DNA of 11,730 nucleotides. Origin: Beijerinckiaceae bacterium (GTDB taxonomy: Bacteria; Pseudomonadota; Alphaproteobacteria; Rhizobiales; Beijerinckiaceae). Each line of letters begins with the position of its first letter. The stretch's first letter is position 1. The notes under the pieces were generated by a model, which worked only from the letters and a program-made list of their open reading frames with translations, was not told the DNA's origin and did not search any database. The position numbers and the translations under genes were made by a program. Below are positions 1 to 11,730 of this stretch, in pieces. The stretch lies in NCBI GenBank assembly GCA_027311205.1, contig DAICZI010000013.1:703-12432 (forward strand). The letters run 5' to 3'.

Positions 1-1398
1 CCACAAACTTTCATGGAGCCGATTCTTTTCAAGATGGCTTGCGCAAGCGGCGCGCAATCGCGCATGTCCTGCGAATACGTTTCTCATGTTCAAGATAAGG
101 ACGGTGTTACCGTCACGGTCAAAGATCGCCTCACCGACAAAAACTTCACAGTGAGCGCCAAATATCTTGTTGGGGCCGATGGCGGGAACTCGCTGGTCGC
201 CGAACATGCCAGCTTGCCATTTGAGGGAAAAATGGGCGTGGGCGGTTCAATGAACATCTTGTTCCGAGCGGACCTCTCAAAGTATGTCGCGCATCGTCCA
301 TCCGTTCTTTATTGGGTCATGCAGCCTGGAGCCGATGTTGGCGGCATTGGCATGGGCCTCGTGCGTATGGTCAGGCCGTGGAATGAATGGCTGATCGTAT
401 GGGGGTATGACATCAACCAACCAGCCCCGACTGTTGATGCCGCAATGGCAACTCAGGTGGCGCGGCAGTTGGTGGGCGATCCCAAACTGGAAATCGACCT
501 GATATCCGCCAATACATGGACAGTCAATAATATGTACGCCACCAGCATGCAAAAAGACCGCGTGTTTATCATGGGTGATGCTGCGCATCGGCATCCTCCA
601 TCAAATGGCTTGGGTTCCAATACATCTATTCAAGACTCATTCAACCTTGCCTGGAAACTTGCGGCTGTGCTCAAGGGCCATGCCGGGCCAAAACTGCTGG
701 ACAGCTACACGCAGGAACGGGGACCCATTGCCAAGCAGATTGTTACGCGCGCCAATCAGTCCATCGCCGAGTTCGGACCGATCTTCGAGGCTCTAGGCAT
801 GGATGGTGGCGTGGACCATGAAAAAATCCGTCACAACATGGATGCTCGCTGCGACGCTACGCCCGCAGCTGAAAAGCAGCGTGAGGCCTTGCGCAAAGCA
901 ATCGAATTCAAAAAATATGAGTTCGATTGCCATGGCGTGGAGATGAACCAGCGCTATGCGTCTGTTGCCATTGCTTCAGAAAGCAGCAAGCCGCCGGGCG
1001 ATGGCATCGACATGGAACTCCACTATGTGCCAACGACATGGCCAGGCGCGCGCCTTCCTCATGTCTGGGTGTTCGGCAAAGATGGCAAGCCGCGTTCAAC
1101 GCTGGACATTACGGGCAAAGGCCACTTTACGCTGCTGACCGGCATTGGCGGCGAAGCCTGGGCTGACGCAGCCAAGATGATCGGCAAGAAACTCGGCATG
1201 GACATAAAGGTGCGGGTCATTGGCCCGCGGCGTGATTATGAAGACCATGCAGGTGACTGGGCCAGCGCCCGTGAGGTGCATGACAGCGGCTGCATTCTGG
1301 TGCGCCCAGACCACCATGTGGCATGGCGCGCGATGAAAGCATCGGCCGATGCCGAATCGGAACTCTCAACTGCGCTCCTGAATATATTGGGACATTGA
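1..1398 (+). CDS. FAD-dependent aromatic hydroxylase, TfdB/phenol 2-monooxygenase type (5' end outside window)
   Basis: Flavoprotein monooxygenase that should hydroxylate a phenolic ring using NAD(P)H and O2, in the cytoplasm. The frame is open from base 1 (Pro-Gln-Thr-Phe before the first Met at 13), so this is the C-terminal 465 residues of a protein that is usually about 580-600 long; the N-terminal FAD-binding GxGxxG part lies to the left. Visible signatures are the GADGG motif (residues 58-62 of the fragment) and the FAD-binding GDAAHRHPP motif (192-200), followed by the SNGLGSNTSIQDSFNLAWKL helix typical of TfdB and phenol hydroxylase. The last ~100 residues form the thioredoxin-like C-terminal domain and contain the family ending GCILVRPDHHVAWR. 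The next gene, a hydroxyquinol-type dioxygenase, starts 2 bases after the stop, so the substrate is probably a phenol, resorcinol or chlorophenol funnelled to (hydroxy)quinol. The exact substrate cannot be read from the sequence. Confidence 0.9.
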   Translation, partial: PQTFMEPILFKMACASGAQSRMSCEYVSHVQDKDGVTVTVKDRLTDKNFTVSAKYLVGADGGNSLVAEHASLPFEGKMGVGGSMNILFRADLSKYVAHRPSVLYWVMQPGADVGGIGMGLVRMVRPWNEWLIVWGYDINQPAPTVDAAMATQVARQLVGDPKLEIDLISANTWTVNNMYATSMQKDRVFIMGDAAHRHPPSNGLGSNTSIQDSFNLAWKLAAVLKGHAGPKLLDSYTQERGPIAKQIVTRANQSIAEFGPIFEALGMDGGVDHEKIRHNMDARCDATPAAEKQREALRKAIEFKKYEFDCHGVEMNQRYASVAIASESSKPPGDGIDMELHYVPTTWPGARLPHVWVFGKDGKPRSTLDITGKGHFTLLTGIGGEAWADAAKMIGKKLGMDIKVRVIGPRRDYEDHAGDWASAREVHDSGCILVRPDHHVAWRAMKASADAESELSTALLNILGH

Positions 1399-1400
1399 AC

Positions 1401-2354
1401 ATGGCTAAAGCTGCGACGGAGAAAAAGCCCGTTGTGAAAAAGAAGACCGAGCCGAATAAAAAGGCACTGGTCAAAGACAAATCAAAAGCTAAATACTATT
1501 TCACGGCGAAGAATTCCGTGAAGGTGGTACAGGATCGTTCCGGTCCCAAGGCCAACAAACGCGTGAAATATTTGGTCGACACGCTGGTTGAACACTTGCA
1601 TGCCTTTATCAAGGAAGCACGTCCTACCATGGATGAGTGGATGTATGGGATTAATTATCTCACGCGCACCGGCCACCTCAGCACTGATTGGCGGCAAGAA
1701 TTTATACTACTGTCGGATGTGCTTGGCATCTCCATGCTGGTTGAAACACTGAACCATGACAAGATGTCCGGCGAAACGGAATCGACGGTGCTTGGTCCCT
1801 TTTACGTCGCCAATGCGCCGCAATATCATAACGGGGCCAATATTTGCCTCGATGGCAAGGGCGTGCCCATCCTTGTGTACGGCAAGGTGACTGACAGCAG
1901 GGGCCAGATCATTCCCGGTGCGACGTTGGATGTCTGGCAGGCAAATGAAGACGGCTTTTATGATGTGCAACAGAAAGGCGTTCAACCTGACATGAACCTG
2001 CGGGGTGTTTTCACTTCCGATAATAAGGGCCGCTACAGCTTCCGCTCGGCCTATCCGCGCCATTATCCCATTCCCTATGACGGGTCAGTCGGCGACATGT
2101 TGAAGGCGCTGGACCGCAATCCCAACCGGCCGGCGCATTTACATTTCATGGTGTCGGCACCCGGCTACGAGAAACTTGTGACGCATATCTTCACACCGGA
2201 TTGCCCGTGGTTGAAGGACGATGCGGTGTTTGGCGTGAAGGAAAGTCTGATTGGCGATTTCAGAATGGTGGATGATGCAAAACGATCAGCGGAATTGGGA
2301 TTTCCAAATCCATTCTACGAAGTGGAGTGGAATATAGTATTGAGCAAAGCCTGA
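1401..2354 (+). CDS. Intradiol ring-cleavage dioxygenase, hydroxyquinol 1,2-dioxygenase type
   Basis: Non-heme Fe(III) enzyme that opens hydroxyquinol (or a catechol) between two hydroxyls, giving maleylacetate or a muconate. The protein is 317 residues. Residues ~50-125 match the dioxygenase N-terminal helical domain, and ESTVLGPFYV (127-136) opens the catalytic beta domain. By spacing to catechol dioxygenases the iron ligands are Tyr187 (GFYD), Tyr222 (RHYPIP), His246 and His248 (RPAHLHF). DAVFGVKESL (274-283) is typical of hydroxyquinol rather than catechol enzymes. I start at 1401, 2 bases after the upstream stop and with a weak GGGA 8 bases before, because an in-frame ATG at 1323 lies deep in the upstream gene. 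Even so, the first ~45 residues are a lysine-rich extension that most family members lack. Together with the upstream monooxygenase it forms a two-step hydroxylation and cleavage module; no maleylacetate reductase is seen here. Chlorocatechol dioxygenase is the alternative. Confidence 0.88.
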   Translation: MAKAATEKKPVVKKKTEPNKKALVKDKSKAKYYFTAKNSVKVVQDRSGPKANKRVKYLVDTLVEHLHAFIKEARPTMDEWMYGINYLTRTGHLSTDWRQEFILLSDVLGISMLVETLNHDKMSGETESTVLGPFYVANAPQYHNGANICLDGKGVPILVYGKVTDSRGQIIPGATLDVWQANEDGFYDVQQKGVQPDMNLRGVFTSDNKGRYSFRSAYPRHYPIPYDGSVGDMLKALDRNPNRPAHLHFMVSAPGYEKLVTHIFTPDCPWLKDDAVFGVKESLIGDFRMVDDAKRSAELGFPNPFYEVEWNIVLSKA

Positions 2355-2590
2355 GCAACGGTGGTGCCGTCAACGTGTTAGGTGCCTGGCAGCAAGCCAC
2401 GGGCAAAATCAATTATCAGCTCACTTTTATAGGAAATATATATTTAAGCCCCTGACTGGCGTGGCGGTCTATTGCTTATTTTGTTGAATGCGTTCGGATT
2501 TACCTCAAACCTAAGGAATGAGTTTTGGGCAATTATCAACGTGACATAGTATGAGCCATATGTTGATGTGCTCGCATTGGAGCAGTCGAC

Positions 2591-3547
2591 ATGTCGCAGC
2601 TATCGAATCCCATCTTTCACGACGAAGACTCTGGGCGCAGGTGGCTTGAGGCTCGGGTTTGGCCGAACGGTCCGGTCTGGCACCATTGCGGCGTCGTCGG
2701 ACAGCCAACCCTCATGAAGGGCGAGACGACTCGCCCCGGCCTCTACCAGTGCAACGCGTGCCGAAGGCCTTTCACCGTGACGATGGGGACGCTCTACGAG
2801 AGCAGCAAGGTTCCCCTGGACGTCTGGCTCGCCGTTACGCACCTGATGATGTCAAGCAAGAAGGGCATGAGCGCCCTTCAGATCAGCCGAATGATTGGGA
2901 GGCCCTACAAGACTGTCTGGTTCCTCTGCCACCGCATCCACGAAAGTCTCAAAGCCTCTCCAACTCTCCCGCCTTCAGGCGGTCAGAACAAGGTCGTTGA
3001 GGCCGACGAGACCTATGTGGGTGGGAAGGCCAAGAACCGAGCATGGCGAGCGCCTGCCCCAAAGCAGCCCGTCCTGTCACTCGTCGAGCGTGAGGGAGAC
3101 GTGCGTTCCTTTCACCTCGCGAAGGTCTCAGCGAAAACGCTTGGCCCGGTCATCCACGAGAACATCCACAAAGCGTCCACGCTCATGACGGACGAAAGCG
3201 TTCTCTATCCCAGGATAGGCAGGGCGTTTTCCTGTCACGGCACGGTCAATCACCCCGCCAACGAATATGCCCGTGCCTACTACTTCTGGCACACGAACAC
3301 GGTCGAGGGCTATTTCAGCCTCTTGAAGCGAGCCGTGTTTGGCACCTTCCGCCACGTCTCCGAAGGTCATCGGACACGCCCGCTCCGTCGCCTTCCAGAT
3401 GGCCGAGGTGGCCATTCCGAGAAATCTCCTCGCGGACATCCTGCGTATGATCGCGGAACTGCGGCCAACGCCGGTCACATCAACAGCATAGCGCATTCGG
3501 GTGTCGTGGGTCTGAACGATAACGACAGGAAAGGTGAGTCTCGATGA
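2591..3547 (+). pseudogene. IS1595-family (ISXO2-like) transposase with broken zinc ribbon and replaced 3' end
   Basis: Residues 1-65 resemble the IS1595 zinc ribbon, with CNAC at 54-57. The first knuckle reads WHHC (30-33) where CxxC is expected, so a metal-binding Cys appears to be lost through a single-base TGC to TGG type change. Residues 75-120 (SSKKGMSALQISRMIG...KTVWFLCHRI) are the conserved helical linker. The catalytic RNase-H-like domain follows, with EADETYVGGK (Asp139), LMTDES (Asp201) and TNTVEGYFSLLKR (Asn236/Glu239). Homology stops at about residue 258 (GTFRHVSE). The next ~60 residues are low-complexity Arg/Pro/Gly translation with no family likeness, because another transposase's tail reads in a different frame there. 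The normal end of the family (roughly 45 residues) is missing, so an active enzyme is unlikely. In the 236 bases before it I see no terminal inverted repeat I can defend. Confidence 0.8.
3363..3491 (+). pseudogene. C-terminal fragment of an unrelated transposase (IS1380/IS5-like)
   Basis: Read in the frame starting at 3363, offset from the IS1595 transposase frame, the sequence gives 42 sensible residues. They begin KVIGHARSVAFQMAEVAIPR, continue NLLADILRMIAELRP and end at TAG 3489-3491. This resembles the conserved tail of DDE transposases of the IS1380 (or IS5) type in alphaproteobacteria, which I know from memory only; the family label is tentative. It joins directly to the truncated IS1595 transposase at about 3360. 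The join therefore looks like insertion followed by deletion, leaving a chimera of two elements. Confidence 0.5.
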
Positions 3548-3993
3548 CGAAAAATACCATGCCCTTCAGCCCTCGGAGCCATATTGGTCTTCCCGGAAGC
3601 CTTTCCGCACCGCGATTCGACCCGGCCATCTTGTCAACAAACGGAAATCAGTCCAGATTTGCTGTCGTACCGGCTTCTATCCGGGGCATGTCGAATGTAC
3701 AGTATAGCACATGCTTGGTTCCGCGCACGTGAAGCCGTTTCTGTGCTCGACGCGAGTCGGCTGGGTCACGCGGAGAGAAAACTAACGAGGAGCGGCCGGA
3801 GGTCACGAATATTAGAGGCGCGGCTCACGGATTTTGGAGGGTTTGGTGGGTTCGGTGGCTTGGTTTAGGCCCCTTCGTGGATTGGTTGCAGATAGCGCCA
3901 TGCGACATGTCTTCTATTGCATTCAGGTTTGAATCGCGACACGAGAAGCGGTTGAATGAGAGATGCGGCCCAGGGCAGCACAGGAGAGAACAG
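3548..3993. other. Gene-free stretch between IS debris and small exported protein
   Basis: About 450 bases with no coding region I can support. The open frames across it (for example the plus-strand one ending at 3868) give no recognisable domain, and their only regular part is the FGGFGGFGG read from a G-rich tandem repeat. The left part probably still belongs to decayed insertion sequence. The right end carries the Shine-Dalgarno site of the next gene, AGGAGAG at about 3982-3988. No convincing promoter or terminator was seen. Confidence 0.5.
3833..3859 (+). repeat. G-rich imperfect 9-base tandem repeat, three copies
   Basis: Three adjacent 9-base units read TTTGGAGGG, TTTGGTGGG and TTCGGTGGC, followed by a partial TTGG. 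Adjacent units differ from each other at one or two positions. The tract has several GG/GGG runs, so a weak two-tier G-quadruplex is conceivable, but it may simply be slipped-strand duplication. No gene function is attached to it. Confidence 0.5.
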
Positions 3994-4401
3994 ATGAAAC
4001 ATAAAATCTGCCAATTAAACCTGTCGTGCGCGCTGGTCGCAGCGAGTGTCTTGCTTGGATTGTCGTCGGCGAGAGCTAAGGTGATTAATCTTGTATGCGG
4101 TAGCCCGGGCTACTACAATAACTATTGGGTCGATACTTCTAGAAACACGATTACCGTCGAGGGGCGAGCGGCTGCGCCAGCGGTTAATACCGTAAAGTAC
4201 TATGTTTATCCTGTTCAGATCACGCGCCTGACCTATAAATGGTTTGCGAATCCGCAGGCCCCAGAATTAAACTGGCAATATACGATTGACCGAGTCTCGG
4301 GCCGTTTCACCCAATACCTTCAGGTGGGGCGCGACCCCCCGCATTTTGTGAACTCGCATTGTTCGAAGGGTTCGACGCCGATGCCCGCGCCGAAACTTTG
4401 A
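3994..4401 (+). CDS. Small exported protein of unknown function
   Basis: 135 residues with a clear Sec signal peptide: positive N-terminus (MKHK), hydrophobic core about residues 8-24 and a probable cleavage after SARA (27-28). The mature part of ~107 residues is rich in Tyr, Asn and Trp and contains only two cysteines, Cys35 and Cys123, near its two ends, so one disulfide in the periplasm is likely. I recognise no domain; small orphan proteins of this form are common in rhizobia. The start at 3994 is chosen because AGGAGAG lies about 6 bases upstream and the signal peptide begins exactly there; the open frame reaches back to 3877 but adds only a charged, non-signal sequence. It stands alone between transposase remnants, which suggests cargo carried with, or spared by, the mobile elements. 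Confidence 0.6.
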   Translation: MKHKICQLNLSCALVAASVLLGLSSARAKVINLVCGSPGYYNNYWVDTSRNTITVEGRAAAPAVNTVKYYVYPVQITRLTYKWFANPQAPELNWQYTIDRVSGRFTQYLQVGRDPPHFVNSHCSKGSTPMPAPKL

Positions 4402-4420
4402 CCCTGGCAATCGCTCCGAT

Positions 4421-4708
4421 TTAAACTGAGATACTGCCGTCGATCGGGCGTGCAGAGCGGGAGAAACGGATGACCTGAAAACATCTTGCTGTAGGACTGG
4501 TCGCAATCGCGCTTTTGGCGTTCTCTTCTTCAAGCCCCCTCGGCTTCTTGGCCTCAGAAACGTCCATGCCACCAAACTTGGCCTTCCACTTGTAGATACT
4601 GGCATCGCTGACTCCGTGCTTGCTGCGCAGATCCGAGACCGAAATCCCAGCCTGGTGCTCTTTTGATATGCCAATAATCTGCTCTTCGCTAAATCTGTTC
4701 CGCTTCAT
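4421..4708 (-). pseudogene. Truncated IS3-family (IS407-like) transposase OrfA
   Basis: The first 65 residues (bases 4514-4708) match the small helix-turn-helix OrfA of IS3-family elements: MKRNRFSEEQIIG at the start, SDLRSKHGVSDASIYKWKAK (25-44) as the helix-turn-helix, and the start of the leucine zipper at LEEENAK (59-65). In intact copies LEEENAK continues into LKRLLAE and a full zipper. Here it changes abruptly to unrelated sequence and stops, and no OrfB (integrase-core) sequence follows. The element is therefore a deletion remnant and cannot transpose. On its upstream (right) side, TGACCGTACCCC read on the minus strand from 4774 could be the outer end of the element. I could not find a convincing partner. 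Confidence 0.8.
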
Positions 4709-5090
4709 CTCTCTGGTCCTCGTTGCCGGGCCAAAGCTGACTTCAATATGGATCTAGTCACAGGGGTACGGTCAATGCATCAACCTCTTGCCGGTTCGTG
4801 ACCCGATGACGCTGGCGTGGAATGTGGCGGCTGCCATTCGAATGAAGCTTGAAAGGCATGATCCGCTCCCGACATTAAAATCGGAAGCCTTTTGCGCCGA
4901 AATTCCCCAAAAATCCCGCCCCACCTGCATCGCTGCAACAAAGTCGCACGGCGCACCGGGCCCTGCCGACGCCATGCACGCCCCCAATCTGGCGATTATT
5001 TAGGCGATTCTGCACCGTTATGCCCGCCGTTCTTGCAGTTCATGGCTCATGAGCTGACATCATAACGATGTAATTTCAATAAGTTATTTG
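4709..5090. other. Non-coding region upstream of the biuret operon
   Basis: About 380 bases without a supportable gene. The left ~65 bases probably belong to the IS3-family remnant. The rest is likely the control region of the operon that begins at 5159. A 10-base perfect palindrome sits at 5045-5054 and an AT-rich segment at 5058-5090 directly precedes the sigma-54 site. I looked for the NtrC consensus (TGCAC, about 5 bases, GTGCA) and found only half-matches such as TGCACC at about 5012. Confidence 0.5.
5045..5054. promoter_or_regulatory. Perfect 10-base palindrome GCTCATGAGC, possible regulator site
   Basis: The sequence GCTCATGAGC equals its own reverse complement. It lies roughly 65-70 bases upstream of the transcription start expected from the sigma-54 promoter at 5091-5107, a plausible place for an activator. 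Symmetry does not extend beyond 10 bases and a palindrome this short can occur by chance, so the assignment is weak. Confidence 0.25.
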
Positions 5091-5107
5091 TTGGCACCAT
5101 GATTGCA
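5091..5107 (+). promoter_or_regulatory. Sigma-54 (RpoN) -24/-12 promoter
   Basis: TTGGCAC, five bases, TTGCA matches the sigma-54 consensus TGGCAC-N5-TTGCW at every conserved position. The invariant GG is at 5093-5094 and GC at 5105-5106, exactly 10 bases apart. Transcription would start near 5118, giving a leader of about 40 bases to the ATG at 5159. Sigma-54 promoters need an enhancer-binding activator such as NtrC, which fits an operon for a nitrogen-rich compound. The promoter overlaps an in-frame ATG at 5099, showing that this ATG cannot be the start of the downstream gene. Confidence 0.85.
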
Positions 5108-5146
5108 TCCACCTTTCTGCAGGCTGACCGCACTTTTCGCGGCAAC

Positions 5147-5151
5147 AGGAG
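5147..5151 (+). promoter_or_regulatory. Ribosome binding site fixing the start of the binding-protein gene
   Basis: AGGAG lies 7 bases before the ATG at 5159. It decides in favour of 5159 over the upstream in-frame ATG at 5099, which falls inside the sigma-54 promoter and would put 20 extra residues before the twin-arginine motif. Confidence 0.85.
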
Positions 5152-5158
5152 CAAAACA

Positions 5159-6283
5159 ATGTCAGACAAGTTTAGAGTTTCACGCAGACAGCTTCTCAAA
5201 TCGACCGCCGCTGGCGTGACAATGCTGGCTTCAGGCGGCATAGAACCCCTGAGCGCGCTGGCAGCCGGCACGCTGACCGTCGGTTTCATCTATGTCGGGT
5301 CGAAGGATGATTACGGCTATAATCAGTCGCATGCTGAGGCCGCGGCAACCTTCAAGAAAATGCCGGGCGTTAAAGTTGTCGAGGAAGAAAACGTCCCCGA
5401 AACCAATGCCGTAGTCGAGACCATGGAATCGATGATCAACATTGACAGCGCTTCATTGATTTTCCCGACGTCGTTTGGCTATTTCGATCCCTTCATGCTC
5501 GCCACCGCGAAAAAATATCCCAAGGTGGAATTCCGGCATTGCGGTGGCTTGTGGACGAAAGCTGATCCAGCAAATACCGGATCCTATTTCGGCTATATCG
5601 GCATGGGGCAATATCTCAATGGCATTGTCGCAGGCCACATGACCAAATCAAAAAAGCTTGGCTTTATCGCCGCCAAGCCCATTCCGCAGGTTCTGCTCAA
5701 CATCAATTCTTTCCTGCTTGGGGCGCGGTCGGTGGATCCTTCCATCACGGTGAAGACCATTTTCACCGGTGACTGGAACTTGCCTGTCAAGGAAGCCGAG
5801 GCCGCCAATGCGCTGGCCGATCAGGGGATTGATGCGCTGACCATGCATGTCGACAGCCCGAAGGTGATTATCCAGACCGCCGCCGGACGCGGGCTTTATG
5901 TCTGCGGCTATCACGTCGATCAGGCGGCACTCGCGCCGACCAAATATCTCACCGGGGCCAATTGGAATTGGGCCAAGCCCTATCATGATTTCATTGAGGA
6001 GAAGCTTGGCAAAAAGCCGCTAGGTCAGTTCGTGCGCGGCGGCATTCCGGAAGGGTTTGTCAAGATGAGTCCACTTGGCGCGATGGTAACGCCGCCAGCC
6101 AGGAAACAGTTTGATGCCACACTGGCTGACATCATGAAGGGCGGTTTTGCCATCATCAGGGGGCCGATGAAGGACAACAAAGGCAATATTGTTGTGCCGG
6201 CGGGCAAAATCTATCCCGAAACCGCCATCGAACTGGAAAAGATGAACTATCTGCTGGATGGCGTGATCGGCTCGACATCCTGA
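5159..6283 (+). CDS. BMP-family ABC transporter substrate-binding protein, Tat-exported
   Basis: 374 residues. The N-terminus carries a twin-arginine signal: SRRQLLK at residues 8-14, hydrophobic stretch to ~26 and an ALA/AG cleavage site near residue 35. The mature part has the basic-membrane-protein (PnrA/Bmp) fold: TVGFIYVGSKDDYGYNQSHAEA at 40-61, where this family binds a purine-like ligand in known cases, IGMGQYLNGIVAGHMTKSKKLGFIA at 147-171, and a C-terminal hinge region. Characterised relatives bind nucleosides or other small N-containing molecules. The operon also encodes two permeases, an ATPase and hydrolases for biuret-like compounds, so I infer the ligand to be biuret and/or triuret, or a related ureide. 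Tat export suggests folding before export. It is first in the operon, directly behind the sigma-54 promoter. A repeat and hairpin separate it from the permease gene, which would allow more binding protein than membrane subunits to be made. Confidence 0.9.
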   Translation: MSDKFRVSRRQLLKSTAAGVTMLASGGIEPLSALAAGTLTVGFIYVGSKDDYGYNQSHAEAAATFKKMPGVKVVEEENVPETNAVVETMESMINIDSASLIFPTSFGYFDPFMLATAKKYPKVEFRHCGGLWTKADPANTGSYFGYIGMGQYLNGIVAGHMTKSKKLGFIAAKPIPQVLLNINSFLLGARSVDPSITVKTIFTGDWNLPVKEAEAANALADQGIDALTMHVDSPKVIIQTAAGRGLYVCGYHVDQAALAPTKYLTGANWNWAKPYHDFIEEKLGKKPLGQFVRGGIPEGFVKMSPLGAMVTPPARKQFDATLADIMKGGFAIIRGPMKDNKGNIVVPAGKIYPETAIELEKMNYLLDGVIGSTS

Positions 6284-6297
6284 TCACCGCTCCCTTT

Positions 6298-6325
6298 GGC
6301 GTGGCCACATGAATCTGGCCGCGCC
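6298..6325 (+). promoter_or_regulatory. Stem-loop after the binding-protein gene
   Basis: Bases 6298-6307 (GGCGTGGCCA) pair with 6316-6325 (TGGCCGCGCC), giving a 10-base-pair stem with one G-U pair and an 8-base loop. It begins 15 bases after the stop codon of the binding-protein gene and lacks a U run, so it is unlikely to be a simple terminator. Such hairpins after binding-protein genes often protect the upstream mRNA from 3' decay. The right arm is part of a 20-base direct repeat. The second copy (right arm at 6339-6348) could pair with the same left arm, giving two mutually exclusive hairpins. Confidence 0.6.
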
Positions 6326-6354
6326 CCATGCCGAAATCTGGCCGCGCCCCATGC
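6312..6354 (+). repeat. Two exact 20-base direct repeats
   Basis: The 20 bases from 6312 to 6331, beginning AATCTGGCCGCG and ending CCCATGC, recur exactly at 6335-6354, with a period of 23 bases. They lie in the 108-base gap between the binding-protein and first permease genes. Both copies carry the right arm of the stem-loop that starts at 6298. A recent duplication by slippage or a selected regulatory structure are both possible. Confidence 0.9.
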
Positions 6355-6391
6355 TGACCACACCCTGACGTGCATGAAGACGAGCTGAAGC

Positions 6392-7522
6392 ATGAGCAAC
6401 GCAAGCCCCGATACCCTGACCAACGCGACCGCAGTCTTGGTCGCGCGCCGCCCCGACGCGCTGGCCTCACTGGCGCGCCATGCCGAGGCCTTCGTCATTC
6501 CCGGCGCGGCACTTCTGGCAGGGCTCGGGGTTTTCTCAGCCTTTCTTGTGGTCTTGGGCAAATCGCCGTCGGCGTTTTTTCTGGCGGTCTATCTTGGCGG
6601 GTTTGGTTCGGCTTTCTCACTTGATAACTCGCTTACCCATGCCTCACCGCTCCTGCTGACTGCGCTTTGCGTGGCACTGCCAGCCCGGCTTGGCCTTGTG
6701 ATCATCGGCGGCGAGGGAGCCTTGGTGCTCGGCGGTCTTGCCGCTGCCAGCATCGCGCTGCCCCTGCATGGAATGCCTTATTTTGTTGTCCTTCCCGCCA
6801 TGGCGGCGGCAGGCGCGCTGGTAGGCGGGTTTTGGATCGGCATTGTCGGGGCGCTGCGCACTTTTCGCGGCGTTAATGAAACCATCAGCTCATTGCTGAT
6901 GGCCTATATCGGCATTGCTTTAATGAACCAGTTGGTGGAAGGGCCGCTCCGCGATCCCGCGAGCCTCAACAAGCCCTCCACCTACCCGATTGGCGACGCC
7001 TATAGACTCGGCAATATTCCCGGCATGCAGGTGCATTGGGGGCTGGCCGTCGGCATTCTCGCTTGCATCGCCTGCTGGGCGCTGATGGAGCGCACGACCT
7101 GGGGGTTTGCTGCACGGGTGGCTGGCGGCAATGTCCGCGCCGCGCAGGTTCAGGGCCTGCCTGTCGGAAAGCTCATTCTGGCCTTCACCTTCATCGCGGG
7201 GGCTTGCGCAGGGCTGGCCGGCATGATCGAGGTTGCCGCCGTGCAGGGCGATGCCAATGCATCTTTGGCGTCAGGCTATGGCTATACCGGGATTTTGGTG
7301 GCGTTTCTGGCCCGGCAAAATCCGCTGGCGATCATTCCGGTGGCTTTCTTGCTGGGGGCGATTGATGCGTCGGGCAGTCTGTTGCAGCGCCACTTGGGCC
7401 TGCCGGATGCAACCGTGCAGGTGCTGCAGGGCATATTATTCATCACCATCCTGTTCTCTGACACACTTTACGGCCACATCAAATGGCTGAACCCCGATCT
7501 CTGGGTGAGGGCGCGGCCGTGA
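6392..7522 (+). CDS. ABC transporter permease, branched-chain/nucleoside (BPD_transp_2) type, first subunit
   Basis: 376 residues, strongly hydrophobic, with roughly eight to ten membrane segments in the inner membrane after a ~35-residue cytoplasmic start. IIGGEGALVLGG (~103-114) corresponds to the NIGAEGQ motif of this permease family. GVNETISSLLMAYI (~160-173) matches the GVNEVIS motif that marks the YufP-like partner of BMP-type transporters. The start at 6392 has only a poor ribosome site (a GA-rich stretch), so its translation may be lower than that of the binding protein. It forms a heterodimeric channel with the next gene product. The stop overlaps the likely GTG start of that gene by 4 bases. 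Confidence 0.88.
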   Translation: MSNASPDTLTNATAVLVARRPDALASLARHAEAFVIPGAALLAGLGVFSAFLVVLGKSPSAFFLAVYLGGFGSAFSLDNSLTHASPLLLTALCVALPARLGLVIIGGEGALVLGGLAAASIALPLHGMPYFVVLPAMAAAGALVGGFWIGIVGALRTFRGVNETISSLLMAYIGIALMNQLVEGPLRDPASLNKPSTYPIGDAYRLGNIPGMQVHWGLAVGILACIACWALMERTTWGFAARVAGGNVRAAQVQGLPVGKLILAFTFIAGACAGLAGMIEVAAVQGDANASLASGYGYTGILVAFLARQNPLAIIPVAFLLGAIDASGSLLQRHLGLPDATVQVLQGILFITILFSDTLYGHIKWLNPDLWVRARP

Positions 7523-8448
7523 GCGGGCCTGCTGCCATTGGCCTTTGGGGGGTGCCGCTCGCCTTGATAGGCGGCGCGATCCGGGTCTCGACGCCGTATA
7601 TTTTCGTGGGCCTGGGCGAAACCATCACCGAGCGCAGCGGACGCATCAATCTTGGCCAGGAGGGCACACTGGTCTTTGGCGCGATGATTGGTTACGGGGT
7701 TGCCATCATGACCGGCTCGCCCTGGCTTGGCGTTGCCGCCGCCTGCGCCTGCGGTGCGGTTTTTGGCCTGTTTCACGGCTGGATTTGCAGCTTTCCCAAG
7801 GTCAATGACATTGCCATCGGCATTGCGATGATGCAGCTCGGCGTCGGGCTGGCGATCTTTTTTGGCAAGCCCTTCATCGAACCCGCAGCCCCGCACCTGC
7901 CCGCCATTTCGCTGGGCTGGTGGAGCGCGGTTCCGCAGATCAAAGCGGCTCTGGATGTCAATTCGCTGTTCATCCTCGGGCTGGCACTGGCGCTGTTTCT
8001 GAACTGGGCTTTCCGCAACACCAAATATGGGCTGATGCTGCGCGTCGTAGGCGACAGTGCCGAAGCGGCCCGGGCCATGGGGCTCAACCCCAACCGCGTG
8101 CGGCTCTATGCAACCGCTATCGGCGGCGGATTGGCGGGAATTGGCGGGGCCTATCTCTCGCTTTATTATCCGGGCAGCTGGAATGAGGGTATTTCGTCCG
8201 GCCAGGGTCTGATGGCGGTCGCATTGGTGATTTTCGCGCGCTGGAACCCGCTTGGCTGTTTCTTTGCGGCGTTGCTCTTTGGGGGCGCTGGGGCGCTCGG
8301 CACCGCGCTGCAATCGGTGGGCGTCACGCAGGGCTATTACCTGTTTTACGCTGCCCCCTATGTTCTGACGCTGATCATTATGACCGCAACATCCTCGCGC
8401 AGCGACAGCCTTGTCGGCGCGCCGGGCGAGCTGTCGATCACCAAATAG
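7519..8448 (+). CDS. ABC transporter permease, second subunit (YufQ-like)
   Basis: 309 residues from a GTG at 7519 that overlaps the upstream stop as GTGA, with GTGAGG 8 bases before it. An in-frame ATG at 7483 would add 12 residues but has no ribosome site and a 40-base overlap, so I prefer GTG. Family marks are [29 protein letters not shown], in which the INLGQEG part is the NIGLEG motif of the second BMP permease, and [32 protein letters not shown], the cytoplasmic ATPase-contact loop followed by a glycine-rich membrane helix. It is an inner-membrane protein with about eight segments. The stop TAG at 8446-8448 overlaps the Shine-Dalgarno of biuH. Confidence 0.87.
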
Positions 8449-8458
8449 GAGCCATGCG

Positions 8459-9160
8459 ATGCGCCGTAAAGCGGGCTTAAACCCCACAACCGTTGCCGCC
8501 GATCCCTATCCCTGGCCCTATGACGGACGCCTGTTGCCAGGCAATACGGCGCTGATGATCATCGATATGCAGACGGATTTCTGCGGCAAGGGCGGCTATG
8601 TCGATGCGATGGGCTATGATCTGTCGCTGGTACGGGCCCCTATTGAAGCCATCGGGCGGGTTCTTGCGGCCTTCCGGGCCGGAGGCTTTCACGTCATCCA
8701 TACCCGCGAAGGCCACCGGCCTGACTTGGCGGATCTGCCAGCCAACAAACGCTGGCGTTCGCGGCGCATCAATGCCGGAATTGGGGATCCGGGACCTTGC
8801 GGACGGATTTTGGTGCGCGGCGAGCCGGGCTGGGAAATCATAGAGGAACTCACGCCCCGCCCCGGCGAACCGATCATCGACAAACCAGGCAAGGGCAGTT
8901 TTTGCGCAACCGATCTTGAACTCATTTTGAGGCAGCGCGGCATCGACAATCTGGTGCTGACCGGCATCACAACGGATGTTTGCGTGCACACAACCATGCG
9001 CGAGGCCAATGACCGGGGCTTTGAATGCCTGTTGCTGGAGGATTGCTGCGGTGCCACCGATTACAGCAACCATCTCGCCGCGCTCAAAATGGTCAAGATG
9101 CAGGGCGGTGTATTTGGTGCGGTGGCAACCGCACAAACATTGATCGAGGCGCTGGGATGA
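8459..9160 (+). CDS. biuH: Biuret amidohydrolase (biuret hydrolase)
   Basis: Cysteine hydrolase of the isochorismatase-like family (EC 3.5.1.84) that hydrolyses biuret to allophanate and ammonia in the cytoplasm. The 233 residues match my memory of the Rhizobium leguminosarum enzyme almost throughout, including ADPYPWPY (14-21), [16 protein letters not shown] (34-49), [20 protein letters not shown] (81-100) and [15 protein letters not shown] (141-155). The known catalytic triad falls at the same numbers: Asp36, Lys142 and Cys175 (in TTDVC); Gln215, which contacts substrate, is also in place (KMQGG). AGGAG lies 7 bases before the ATG at 8459. A spurious upstream in-frame ATG at 8411 lies within the permease gene. 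The gene sits between the second permease and the ATPase of the importer, and its stop overlaps the next start as ATGA, which ties hydrolysis to uptake. Ureidoacrylate amidohydrolase (RutB) is the nearest alternative but fits less well. Confidence 0.92.
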
Positions 9161-10686
9161 CACAGGCACCGCCACGCGCGCCCTCCCTTGAAACCATCGG
9201 CATGAGCAAGAGTTTTGGCGCGCTGCAGGCCCTGGCCGATGTCTCGATCAAAATTGCGGCTGGGTCGTTTCACGCGCTTCTTGGCGAGAATGGTGCGGGA
9301 AAATCCACGCTGGTCAAATGCATCATGGGCTTTTATCAGCCAAGTTCGGGGGCCATTCTGGTAGATGGGGCGCAAGCGGATTTGGGGACACCAGCCCGAG
9401 CTGCGGCGTTGGGATTGGGCATGGTCTATCAGCATTTTACGCTGGTTCCCTCGCTGACGGGCGCGGAGAATCTGGTGATATCGCGCGCCGATATTGGCAC
9501 CGTCATCAACTGGCGCGTCGAGACCCGGCGACTGGATGCGTTCATGGCAACCATGCCCTTCGACGTGCCACTCGATGTGCCAACCGGCCAGTTGGCCGCG
9601 GGGCAGAAGCAAAAGCTCGAAATCCTGAAGCAGCTCTATCTCGGTCGGCGCTTTCTCATTCTCGACGAGCCAACGTCGGTGCTGACGCCCGATGAGGCCC
9701 ACGACGTGCTCGGCCTGTTGCGGGCCATGACCGAGGCTGACGACCTCACCGTTTTGATGATATCGCACAAGTTTCATGAAGTGACGGCCTTCGCCGACGA
9801 GGTTAGCGTCCTGCGCAAGGGCGTCTTTGTCGGAACCGGCAAAACGGCAGAGCTTTCCGCCGCCGACATGGCAGCCATGATGATCGGCGATGCCAAACTC
9901 GCCGTTATGGATCATCGTGCCAGCATCTCTGCCAATACGGATCCAACCCTTCTGGTGCGCGGACTGACGGCACCGGATCGGACCGGCTTCAAAACCATCT
10001 CCATTGCTCATCTCGCGGTCAAACCCGCCGAAATAGTCGGCATTGCCGGCATTGCGGGCAATGGCCAGAAGGAGCTTCTCGAAATTCTGGCGGGCCAACG
10101 CCCGATGGTAAACGGCACCATCCTTGTGCATGGCGAGGCATATCACGCAACACGTGAGGCCGCGCGCAAGCACCATGTTCGCTTCATTCCGGAGGAGCCG
10201 CTGCAAAACGCGTGCGCGCCGAGAATGTCGGTCGCCGAAAATCTGGCGCTGCGCATGTTTGACATCGACAAGAATGGCCAAAACATACTCTGGCTGGATC
10301 GCGCTCGGATCAGGCAACACGCGCGCATGCTGATCGAGGCCTTCAAGGTGAAGACCGCCTCGCTTGCCAGTCCGATTGCCGCCCTCTCGGGCGGCAATGT
10401 CCAGCGCGCGGTGCTGGCACGCGAACTCACCGGTGAGGTGGATCTGTTGATTGTCTCAAATCCCTGCTTTGGTCTCGATTTTTCTGCCGTGGCCGAAATA
10501 CGTGCCAGGATCATGCAGGCGCGCAATGCCGGAACCGCAGTGCTGCTCATCAGCGAGGATTTGGACGAATTATTTGAACTTTCTGACAGGATTCTGGTGA
10601 TGTCCAGCGGCGAAATTGTATTTGAAACGCCAATTGGCTCCGCCGATGTCGGCGTCATCGGCTCGCATATGGCAGGACACCACTGA
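9157..10686 (+). CDS. ABC transporter ATPase with two nucleotide-binding domains (BMP/ribose-type)
   Basis: 509 residues containing two fused ABC domains that drive the importer. Domain 1 is complete: Walker [10 protein letters not shown] (43-51), Q-loop Gln92, signature LAAGQ (146-150), Walker B FLILDEP (166-172) and switch His204. Domain 2 is degenerate: the Walker A region reads GIAGNGQKE (298-306), with Gln in the place of the lysine, and the Walker B end reads LLIVSNP (430-436), with Asn435 instead of the catalytic Glu. Its signature LSGGN (410-414) is kept. One catalytic and one weak site is usual for this subfamily. The start at 9157 overlaps the biuH stop (ATGA) and has GAGG 7 bases before; an in-frame ATG at 9025 lies inside biuH and is rejected. 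The stop overlaps the next ATG by one base. Confidence 0.92.
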
Positions 10687-11354
10687 TGGCCGTGATTGCC
10701 GCAAAGCCCTTCGCCTTCCCCTTCGACAAATACAAGTCCGCGCTTGTGATCATCGACATGCAGCGCGATTTTCTGGAACATGGCGGCTTCGGCGAGTCGC
10801 TGGGCAATGACGTGGCGCGGCTGGGTACAATTGTTCCGGCGGTGGGTCGCCTGCTGCAAGCCTGGCGCGCCCTTGATTTGACCATCATCCACACGATGGA
10901 ATGCCACCGCCCCGATCTTTCCGACTTGCCCGCCGCCAAGCGTGACCGTGGCCAGCCGAAATTGCGCATTGGCGAGCCCGGCCCAATGGGGCGCATTCTG
11001 GTGGCGGGCGAACCGGGCACCGAGATAATTGCGGCCTTGGCACCCCGCATGAACGAAATTGTCATTGAAAAGCCTGGCAAGGGTGCGTTTTACGCCACCA
11101 ATCTCGGTGAAATCCTCAAAAGTCGAGGGATTACGCAACTGATCCTTGTCGGCGTGACCACTGAAGTTTGCGTCCAGACAACCATGCGCGAGGCCAATGA
11201 TCGTGGCTATGAATGCCTGCTCGTCGAAGATGGAACCGAAAGTTATTTCCCTGAATTCAAGGCAGCCACGCTGGAGATGGTTCGCGCGCAGGGTGCAATT
11301 GTCGGCTGGACTGCACTCTCAAATGATATTTTACAAGGATTGAGCGATGGCTGA
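10686..11354 (+). CDS. trtA: Isochorismatase-like cysteine hydrolase, probable triuret hydrolase
   Basis: 222 residues, clearly a paralogue of the BiuH encoded at 8459-9160. Both have HRPDLxDLPAx[12 protein letters not shown] or [10 protein letters not shown], KPGKGxFxAT, and [22 protein letters not shown]. The expected triad is Asp24 (IIDMQ), Lys129 (EKPGKG) and Cys162 (TTEVC), with Gln203 equivalent to BiuH Gln215. It differs around the active site: FLEHGGF replaces FCGKGGY, and [11 protein letters not shown] replaces [11 protein letters not shown]. Triuret hydrolase TrtA is a described close relative of BiuH whose gene clusters with biuH, and it turns triuret into carboxybiuret plus ammonia, which would feed BiuH. 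That fit is by family and context; another ureide amidase remains possible. The ATG at 10686 overlaps the ATPase stop (TGATG), with AGGA 8 bases upstream. The end overlaps the cupin gene by 8 bases. Confidence 0.7.
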
Positions 11355-11703
11355 ACGCCTTTTTTGCGGCTTGCTTAACGGCGGCTGGCGTCATCTGGCG
11401 CATGAGCCGTTTCGCGAGGGAATCGTGGTGCGCTGGCTCAGCAAAGGCGAAGCAGGGTCTCCGACGGTAGCCATTCTGGAATATGCGCCGGGGGCAAGGG
11501 CACCGCGTCACCGCCACACGGGTCTTGAAACCATCCTTGTTCTTGAAGGCACCCAAAGCGACGAGAACGGCGATTATCCCGAGGGCAGCCTGGTTTTCAA
11601 CCCACCCGGTTCCGAGCATTCGGTTTGGAGTGAAAGAGGCTGCACCGTATTTATCCACTGGGACCAACCGGTGGTGTTTGTTGACGTGGAGGACGGACAA
11701 TGA
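11347..11703 (+). CDS. ChrR-like cupin-domain protein
   Basis: 118 residues forming a single small cupin barrel of the ChrR cupin-like type. The likely metal ligands are His55, His57 and Glu61 ([16 protein letters not shown]) and His91 (PPGSEHSV), a standard cupin set. No membrane segment or signal is present, so it is cytoplasmic. AAGGA lies 7 bases before the ATG at 11347, which overlaps the preceding hydrolase gene by 8 bases; the stop overlaps the next start as ATGA. The full ChrR anti-sigma factor also has an N-terminal zinc domain, which is absent, so this is not an anti-sigma factor as such. In this operon it might bind an intermediate such as allophanate or carboxybiuret, or act as a sensor. 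Its function is unknown. Confidence 0.75.
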
Positions 11704-11730
11704 GCGATATCATGTTCGACTTTGAAAGTC
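11700..11730 (+). CDS. Start of the next operon gene (cut by window end)
   Basis: The ATG at 11700 overlaps the cupin stop (ATGA) and has GGAGG 7 bases before it, so a real gene starts here. Only ten residues are visible, [10 protein letters not shown], too few to identify it. Given the pathway, an amidase or allophanate hydrolase that takes the BiuH product is the natural expectation, but that is inference from context. Confidence 0.6.
   Translation, partial: MSDIMFDFES

Follow-up and report, generated by a model that had tools for sequence, protein, structure and literature searches.

What does an ABC importer carry when a biuret hydrolase gene stands among its own genes? This question is raised by a stretch of 11,730 nucleotides (hereafter, the window) from a member of the Beijerinckiaceae, which covers positions 703-12432 of a 12,432-base contig, the right end of the window being the contig end, and which comes from a source genome of 2.3 Mb, 73% complete and in 509 contigs. 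Biuret and triuret are by-products of urea fertiliser and uric acid, and biuret, an impurity in urea fertiliser, is toxic to plants. The best explanation of the locus, to which we give a probability of roughly 0.78, is a nitrogen-scavenging operon, that is, a BMP importer that would take up biuret, and probably also triuret, for breakdown by TrtA, BiuH and AtzF; the ligand, the direction of transport, the role of the cupin and the expression of the operon we infer.

Gene layout and hydrolases of the operon

The operon contains the following genes.

5159..6283, + strand, BMP-type periplasmic binding protein with a Tat-type signal (Pfam Bmp PF02608, 1.8e-38)
6392..7522, + strand, permease A, BPD_transp_2 (Pfam PF02653, 5.6e-32)
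7483..8448, + strand, permease B, BPD_transp_2 (Pfam PF02653, 1.3e-39)
8459..9160, + strand, biuH, predicted biuret amidohydrolase (NF050097, 418.6 bits; 6azo, 5.9e-127; BiuH residue pattern)
9157..10686, + strand, ABC ATPase with two ABC_tran stretches (Pfam PF00005, 7.1e-44)
10686..11354, + strand, trtA, predicted triuret hydrolase (6xix, 7.8e-81 vs best BiuH, 3.5e-61; full TrtA residue pattern)
11347..11703, + strand, ChrR-type cupin (Pfam Cupin_7, 2.8e-21)
11700..11730, + strand, probable allophanate hydrolase gene (atzF), first ten codons, the contig end cutting off the rest

The longest ORF of the binding protein starts at 5099 and its probable start is 5159, with a Tat-type RRQLLK signal, while biuH probably starts at 8459, with AGGAG upstream of the start. 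A gap of 108 nt separates the binding-protein gene from permease A; from permease A onward adjacent genes overlap or lie 10 nt apart, namely an overlap of 40 nt between the permease genes (provided that the start of permease B is correct), a gap of 10 nt before biuH, overlaps of 4 nt between biuH and the ATPase gene, 1 nt between the latter and trtA and 8 nt between trtA and the cupin gene, and an ATGA overlap of the atzF start with the cupin stop. The first-pass annotation had placed the importer genes, biuH and a second hydrolase in one operon, with biuH between permease and ATPase genes; all six are indeed on the + strand in the part of the window that it had singled out, and biuH follows the second permease gene and precedes that of the ATPase. 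The cupin gene and the start of the allophanate hydrolase gene are further operon members, absent from that annotation. With a Bmp-domain binding protein, two BPD_transp_2 permeases and a double ATPase the transporter is an ABC importer of the BMP/PnrA type. The urea importer UrtABCDE and a putative B6 importer (NCBIfam) have permease and ATPase types similar to those of the window, and both were rejected: the subunits matching Urt are below the curated cut-offs (e.g., UrtB, 35.9 of 250.3) and those matching the B6 importer score 39-399 against cut-offs of 400-670.

The Isochorismatase Pfam domain is found twice in the window, once in each hydrolase. The first hydrolase passes the NCBIfam BiuH model NF050097 (418.6 bits, cut-off 370) and has as its nearest relative the BiuH from R. 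leguminosarum 3841, known as the crystal structure 6azo (5.9e-127); the second is below the same cut-off (247.3 bits vs 370) and among solved structures matches TrtA, 6xix, best. Residue patterns were read at 13 positions that the available text of the TrtA paper (PMC7948467) gives for the active site and for specificity, and at all 13, including the catalytic D, K and C, the window's first hydrolase equals 6azo, while the second carries the TrtA residues F35, N41, E160, Y187, Q202 and I205, numbered as in that text. In an alignment of 172 hydrolases that includes two solved references, the BiuH pattern is seen in 83 and a TrtA pattern in 81 (74 exact, 7 deviating at position 134 only), and the eight with neither are one near-BiuH, one fragment and six more distant proteins. 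By sequence and specificity residues the first hydrolase is BiuH, with biuret hydrolysis predicted, and the second is TrtA, with triuret hydrolysis predicted; the identification of the second isochorismatase-like hydrolase as a triuret hydrolase, made in the first-pass annotation, was borne out by these residues and by 6xix as the closest relative. On the same grounds they are the same enzymes as the BiuH of R. leguminosarum 3841 (PMC5806882) and the TrtA of Herbaspirillum (PMC7948467), as far as the available text of those papers describes them. The same importer surrounds biuH in R. johnstonii 3841, where the orthologue of the binding protein is at L053:5738-6865, and no description of this importer was found in the available portions of either paper.

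The ten-codon ORF at the contig end resembles VSEIFFDLKR, the start of the gene at the same position in a same-genus relative (L008, apparently contig 27 of G338). Because that gene passes TIGR02713 (769.5 bits, cut-off 511), the terminal ORF of the window is probably atzF; the rest of the incomplete source genome gave no close match to allophanate hydrolase, the best having 35% identity. The DNA of L008 is similar to 5071-11719 of the window at 81%, and the similarity begins 88 nt before the binding-protein start codon. L008 has a divergent GntR gene, to which no match was found in the window or in the incomplete source genome, an empty answer that alone shows little; since transposase genes lie upstream in the window (2591-3547 and 4421-4708), the regulator may have been displaced. 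Across 1-5071, where similarity to L008 is absent, the window contains a FAD monooxygenase fragment, a catechol-type intradiol dioxygenase, an IS1595-type transposase, an HTH_Tnp_1 transposase fragment and an ORF without a Pfam match. Rfam and tRNA scans of the window gave no matches, and a promoter scan of 4400-5300 found no sigma-70-like site.

Linkage between the importer and biuH

A GTDB scan with the window BiuH as query gave 586 confirmed stretches, the best 80 of which were kept as loci; single-linkage clustering of ORFs merged shadow frames and was used for choosing candidates only. Among these best 80 of 586, at least one importer gene is present in 72 and all four are present in 67, and in 66 of the 67 complete importers biuH is flanked by permease B and the ATPase gene on one strand, the sole exception (L080) having a divergent importer. 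Five loci are partial, three of them (L012, L022 and L032) near contig ends and two (L057 and L075) with one gene missing by score despite long flanks. The gene order, for which the first-pass annotation had considered uniqueness to this genome, is thus conserved in many genomes, and so uniqueness is excluded. The hosts in this set include rhizobia, Rubrivivax, Aquabacterium, Stutzerimonas, Alloalcanivorax and R. johnstonii 3841 (L053).

The same best 80 of 586 loci contain TrtA-pattern genes in 67 cases, a GntR-type gene in 55, AtzE/AtzF-type amidases in 44 (a count that covers both types because the reference labelled AtzF is an AtzE) and a cyanuric acid hydrolase in 18, including R. johnstonii 3841. 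A formamidase gene is present in 28, namely L053 (8952-9968, NF009803) and 27 more, and in many of these it stands after permease B and before biuH. The cupin gene is found in 51 of the 80, and trtA is also present in 50 of those 51, a co-occurrence on which the cupin is perhaps a candidate carboxybiuret decarboxylase (the TrtB step).

Surveys starting from the binding protein were made in 289 Alphaproteobacteria genomes (class set) and 398 Pseudomonadota genomes (phylum set). In the class set 23 genomes have a match of at least 346.8 bits, the next score being 238.8, and in 21 of the 23 the same contig carries biuH, the distance between match starts being 2.7-4.2 kb; the contig of G288 holds the binding protein, permeases and a formamidase and then ends, and that of G078 stops just after the binding protein. 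The phylum set gave 26 copies in 24 genomes, each genome having one copy 2.8-4.3 kb from biuH. The two extra copies are divergent, 49-52% identical, and without adjacent biuH: one, in G552 (L108:6264-7367), adjoins trtA and the AGZA-like gene described below, and the other, in G369 (L109:6333-7475), has no such hydrolase in 13 kb. No permease or ATPase match was found beside either, and they have Leu or Ile at the position of AtzT residue 165. When the sets are pooled and the window's own genome is counted once, 46 genomes hold 48 clade copies, of which 44 are separated from biuH by 2.7-4.3 kb, and the remaining four are the two cut by contig ends and the two divergent exceptions.

In the reverse direction, of the 24 class-set genomes with BiuH of at least 375 bits 21 have the clade binding protein next to it, as do 24 of the 26 phylum-set genomes with BiuH of at least 360 bits, leaving a strong biuH without the importer in three (one of them a contig break) and two genomes, respectively. 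Presence in the class set is 22 genomes with both, one with the binding protein only, two with BiuH only and 264 with neither (Fisher 1e-29, which is not a true probability as the genomes are related). The linkage of the binding-protein clade to biuH is near-obligate, and chance association is excluded by the class and phylum surveys made from the binding protein. In the window's own family BiuH of at least 398 bits occurs in 12 of 60 genomes, so the operon is patchy.

Binding-protein pocket and rival cargoes

The AF2 model of the binding protein (pLDDT 88.1) has as its best Foldseek match AtzT of Pseudomonas sp. ADP, with 36% identity in the fold match, while 3s99 and AtzT tie by Z, and the riboflavin binder 4iil is also among the fold matches. 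In the available text of PMC6834077, AtzT binds guanine (KD about 110 nM), 2-hydroxyatrazine and ammeline, and it reads guanine with Glu165, Ser97, Asn218, Asn220 and the Phe98 backbone, between Tyr45 and Trp194. AtzT and its ABC transporter AtzS-W, as described there, resemble the window's system in BMP fold, Tat signal, a tie to a related pathway and a possible nitrogen-rich non-nucleoside ligand. AtzT is therefore a BMP precedent for non-nucleoside ligands, and the suggestion in the first-pass annotation of a new substrate class for BMP-type binding proteins was overstated, since AtzT takes 2-hydroxyatrazine and ammeline (PMC6834077, available text); it is weakened by 4iil as well, and by the nitrifier loci already published (PMC12625717, see below), in which a BMP importer occurs together with biuH and trtA.

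Nevertheless, AtzT and the window protein differ in clade and pocket. A tree of 98 proteins, made of 73 clade members including the window's and 25 others with AtzT and 3s99, puts the 73 on one side of a 100/100 branch, although the tool warned of long branches. Ser97, Phe98 and Trp194 are retained in the 73-member clade, and position 45 is Tyr in 62, Trp in 10 and a gap in one; Glu165, Asn218 and Asn220 of AtzT are Gln, His and Asp in the window. At position 165 the clade has Gln in 63, Ser in 7 and Thr in 3, and Glu is found in 23 of the 25 others. An AtzT-type purine binder was accordingly rejected both by the tree, in which the window is split from AtzT and 3s99 (under the long-branch warning), and by residue, the purine-reading Glu165 being Gln in the window and Glu being absent from 73 of 73 clade members. 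These comparisons support placing the window's binding protein, at the level of sequence, in a biuH-tied clade separate from the purine binders. Loss of the acid at 165 would fit an uncharged ureide. However, Gln165 is not a private mark of biuret binding, because L088, one of the two exceptions outside the clade, also has Gln and adjoins a different isochorismatase. In that locus (L088:1150-6981, G082) a BMP importer is interleaved with this isochorismatase, 30% identical to BiuH, and a YjgF-like gene, and it is possibly a sister ureide or pyrimidine importer.

Three other cargoes have to be weighed against biuret. It is unlikely that the importer carries purine bases or nucleosides, with biuH co-located since both serve purine-derived nitrogen. 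The closest solved relatives bind guanine (AtzT) or hold adenine (3s99), the clade retains the aromatic clamp and Ser97/Phe98, and nucleoside transporter is the label used in the available text of the nitrifier paper (PMC12625717); but the clade is separate in the tree, lacks the purine-reading Glu in all 73 members and is tied to biuH in 44 of 48 copies, and the xanthine dehydrogenase small subunit of L105 and its neighbour protein are unmatched in the best 80 of 586 biuH loci. Purine genes are, however, a mostly uninformative contrast, xanthine dehydrogenase adjoining only 1 of 18 non-biuH relatives.

Cyanuric acid or a related ring as the main cargo, with biuret as only a breakdown intermediate, is very unlikely: no atzD match was found in 62 of the best 80 of 586 loci, nor in the window as far as the contig reaches, even though AtzT-type relatives take triazines and the hydrolase is inside the other 18 loci, including that of R. 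johnstonii 3841. A broader or different range of short amides and ureides (formamide, allophanate, allantoin products), of which BiuH would serve one use among several, is doubtful, although it would account for the formamidase gene in 28 of those 80 loci and for the variation of position 165 among Q, S and T within the clade; the search from the binding protein shows a constant partner in biuH.

A candidate triuret permease and the probable division of cargo

Eight of the best 80 of 586 biuH loci have no importer gene. Three of them have trtA (L009, L011 and L077), and in these trtA and biuH flank the gene for a protein that has about 520 residues and 12-13 hydrophobic stretches; the five without trtA gave no match to it. 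Genes for this AGZA-like protein are at L009:8346-9917, L011:8439-10025, L077:7253-9040, L104:14518-16125 and L108:3532-5190, and also in L112-L120; Solimonas aquatica is one host of such a gene. The names of its relatives include "AGZA family xanthine/uracil permease-like", "adenine/guanine/hypoxanthine permease" and "regulator" (best 120 of 8000 scored). No Pfam match was found in five members tested, no NCBIfam match at E 1e-20 in two members tested and no PDB sequence match at E up to 10; a poor model (pLDDT 58.3) gave no Foldseek match at E 0.001 or better, its best being SLC26/SLC23-type at E 0.042. In L077 a Tsx-type outer-membrane channel gene (9076-9963, PF03502) stands directly before biuH, a possible outer-membrane route.

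Matches of at least 523 bits occur in 15 of the 398 phylum-set genomes, all 15 genomes having a BiuH/TrtA-type gene 62-477 nt away from the matching segment; this linkage count is confined to such matches, 32 further genomes matching at no more than 392 bits, and in one genome with a weaker match (G524) trtA is on another contig. Eleven of the 15 were retrieved (L104, L108 and L112-L120), and the neighbour has the exact TrtA pattern in all 11. Both transporters are present in five genomes (G384, G468, G521, G552 and G641), in which the only other BiuH-type match at 1e-60 adjoins the AGZA-like gene, outside the importer operon; in G315, which has the importer, a BiuH/TrtA-type gene stands elsewhere and is not accompanied by the AGZA-like permease. 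The AGZA-like membrane protein is a candidate triuret permease.

Among the best 80 of 586 loci, six with a complete importer and biuH have no trtA within 10-kb flanks (L021, L052, L072, L074, L079 and L080). Because the importer and biuH are also found without trtA, and because trtA away from the importer tends to have its own permease-like partner, biuret is the likelier core cargo of the importer, triuret being added where trtA is in the operon. In the window, the Tat-exported BMP-fold binding protein would capture biuret, and probably also triuret, in the periplasm, and the two permeases and the double-domain ATPase would import the captured cargo. TrtA would then convert triuret to carboxybiuret, which would decarboxylate to biuret, perhaps helped by the cupin; BiuH would convert biuret to allophanate, from which ammonia would be released by AtzF, the enzyme whose gene is cut off by the contig end. 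There is an even chance that the wider picture is one of two unrelated polyurea transporters, a BMP-type ABC importer with biuret as core cargo and Gln, Ser or Thr for the purine-reading Glu, and an AGZA-like triuret permease, each hydrolase having its own transporter where both are present and the ABC importer serving both in loci of the window type.

How much of this is new? In the available text of PMC12625717, bmpA-nupABC is reported beside biuH, trtA and trtB in ammonia oxidisers, with atzF alongside in bacteria, and the importer is named a nucleoside transporter. These nitrifier loci are like the window in having BMP importer genes, biuH and trtA in one neighbourhood, and such co-location is already in print; in that text no assignment of biuret or triuret as cargo was found, and no analysis of clade or pocket for the binding protein. 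A literature search, made mainly among openly accessible papers, found no transporter assigned to biuret or triuret. The finding is thus well supported as a reassignment of a known kind of importer together with a new candidate permease, rather than as a new kind of system. If the reading is true, a widespread importer would have to lose its present name of nucleoside transporter, the importer together with biuH would serve as a genome marker for biuret use, and the AGZA-like permease family would gain its first testable substrate.
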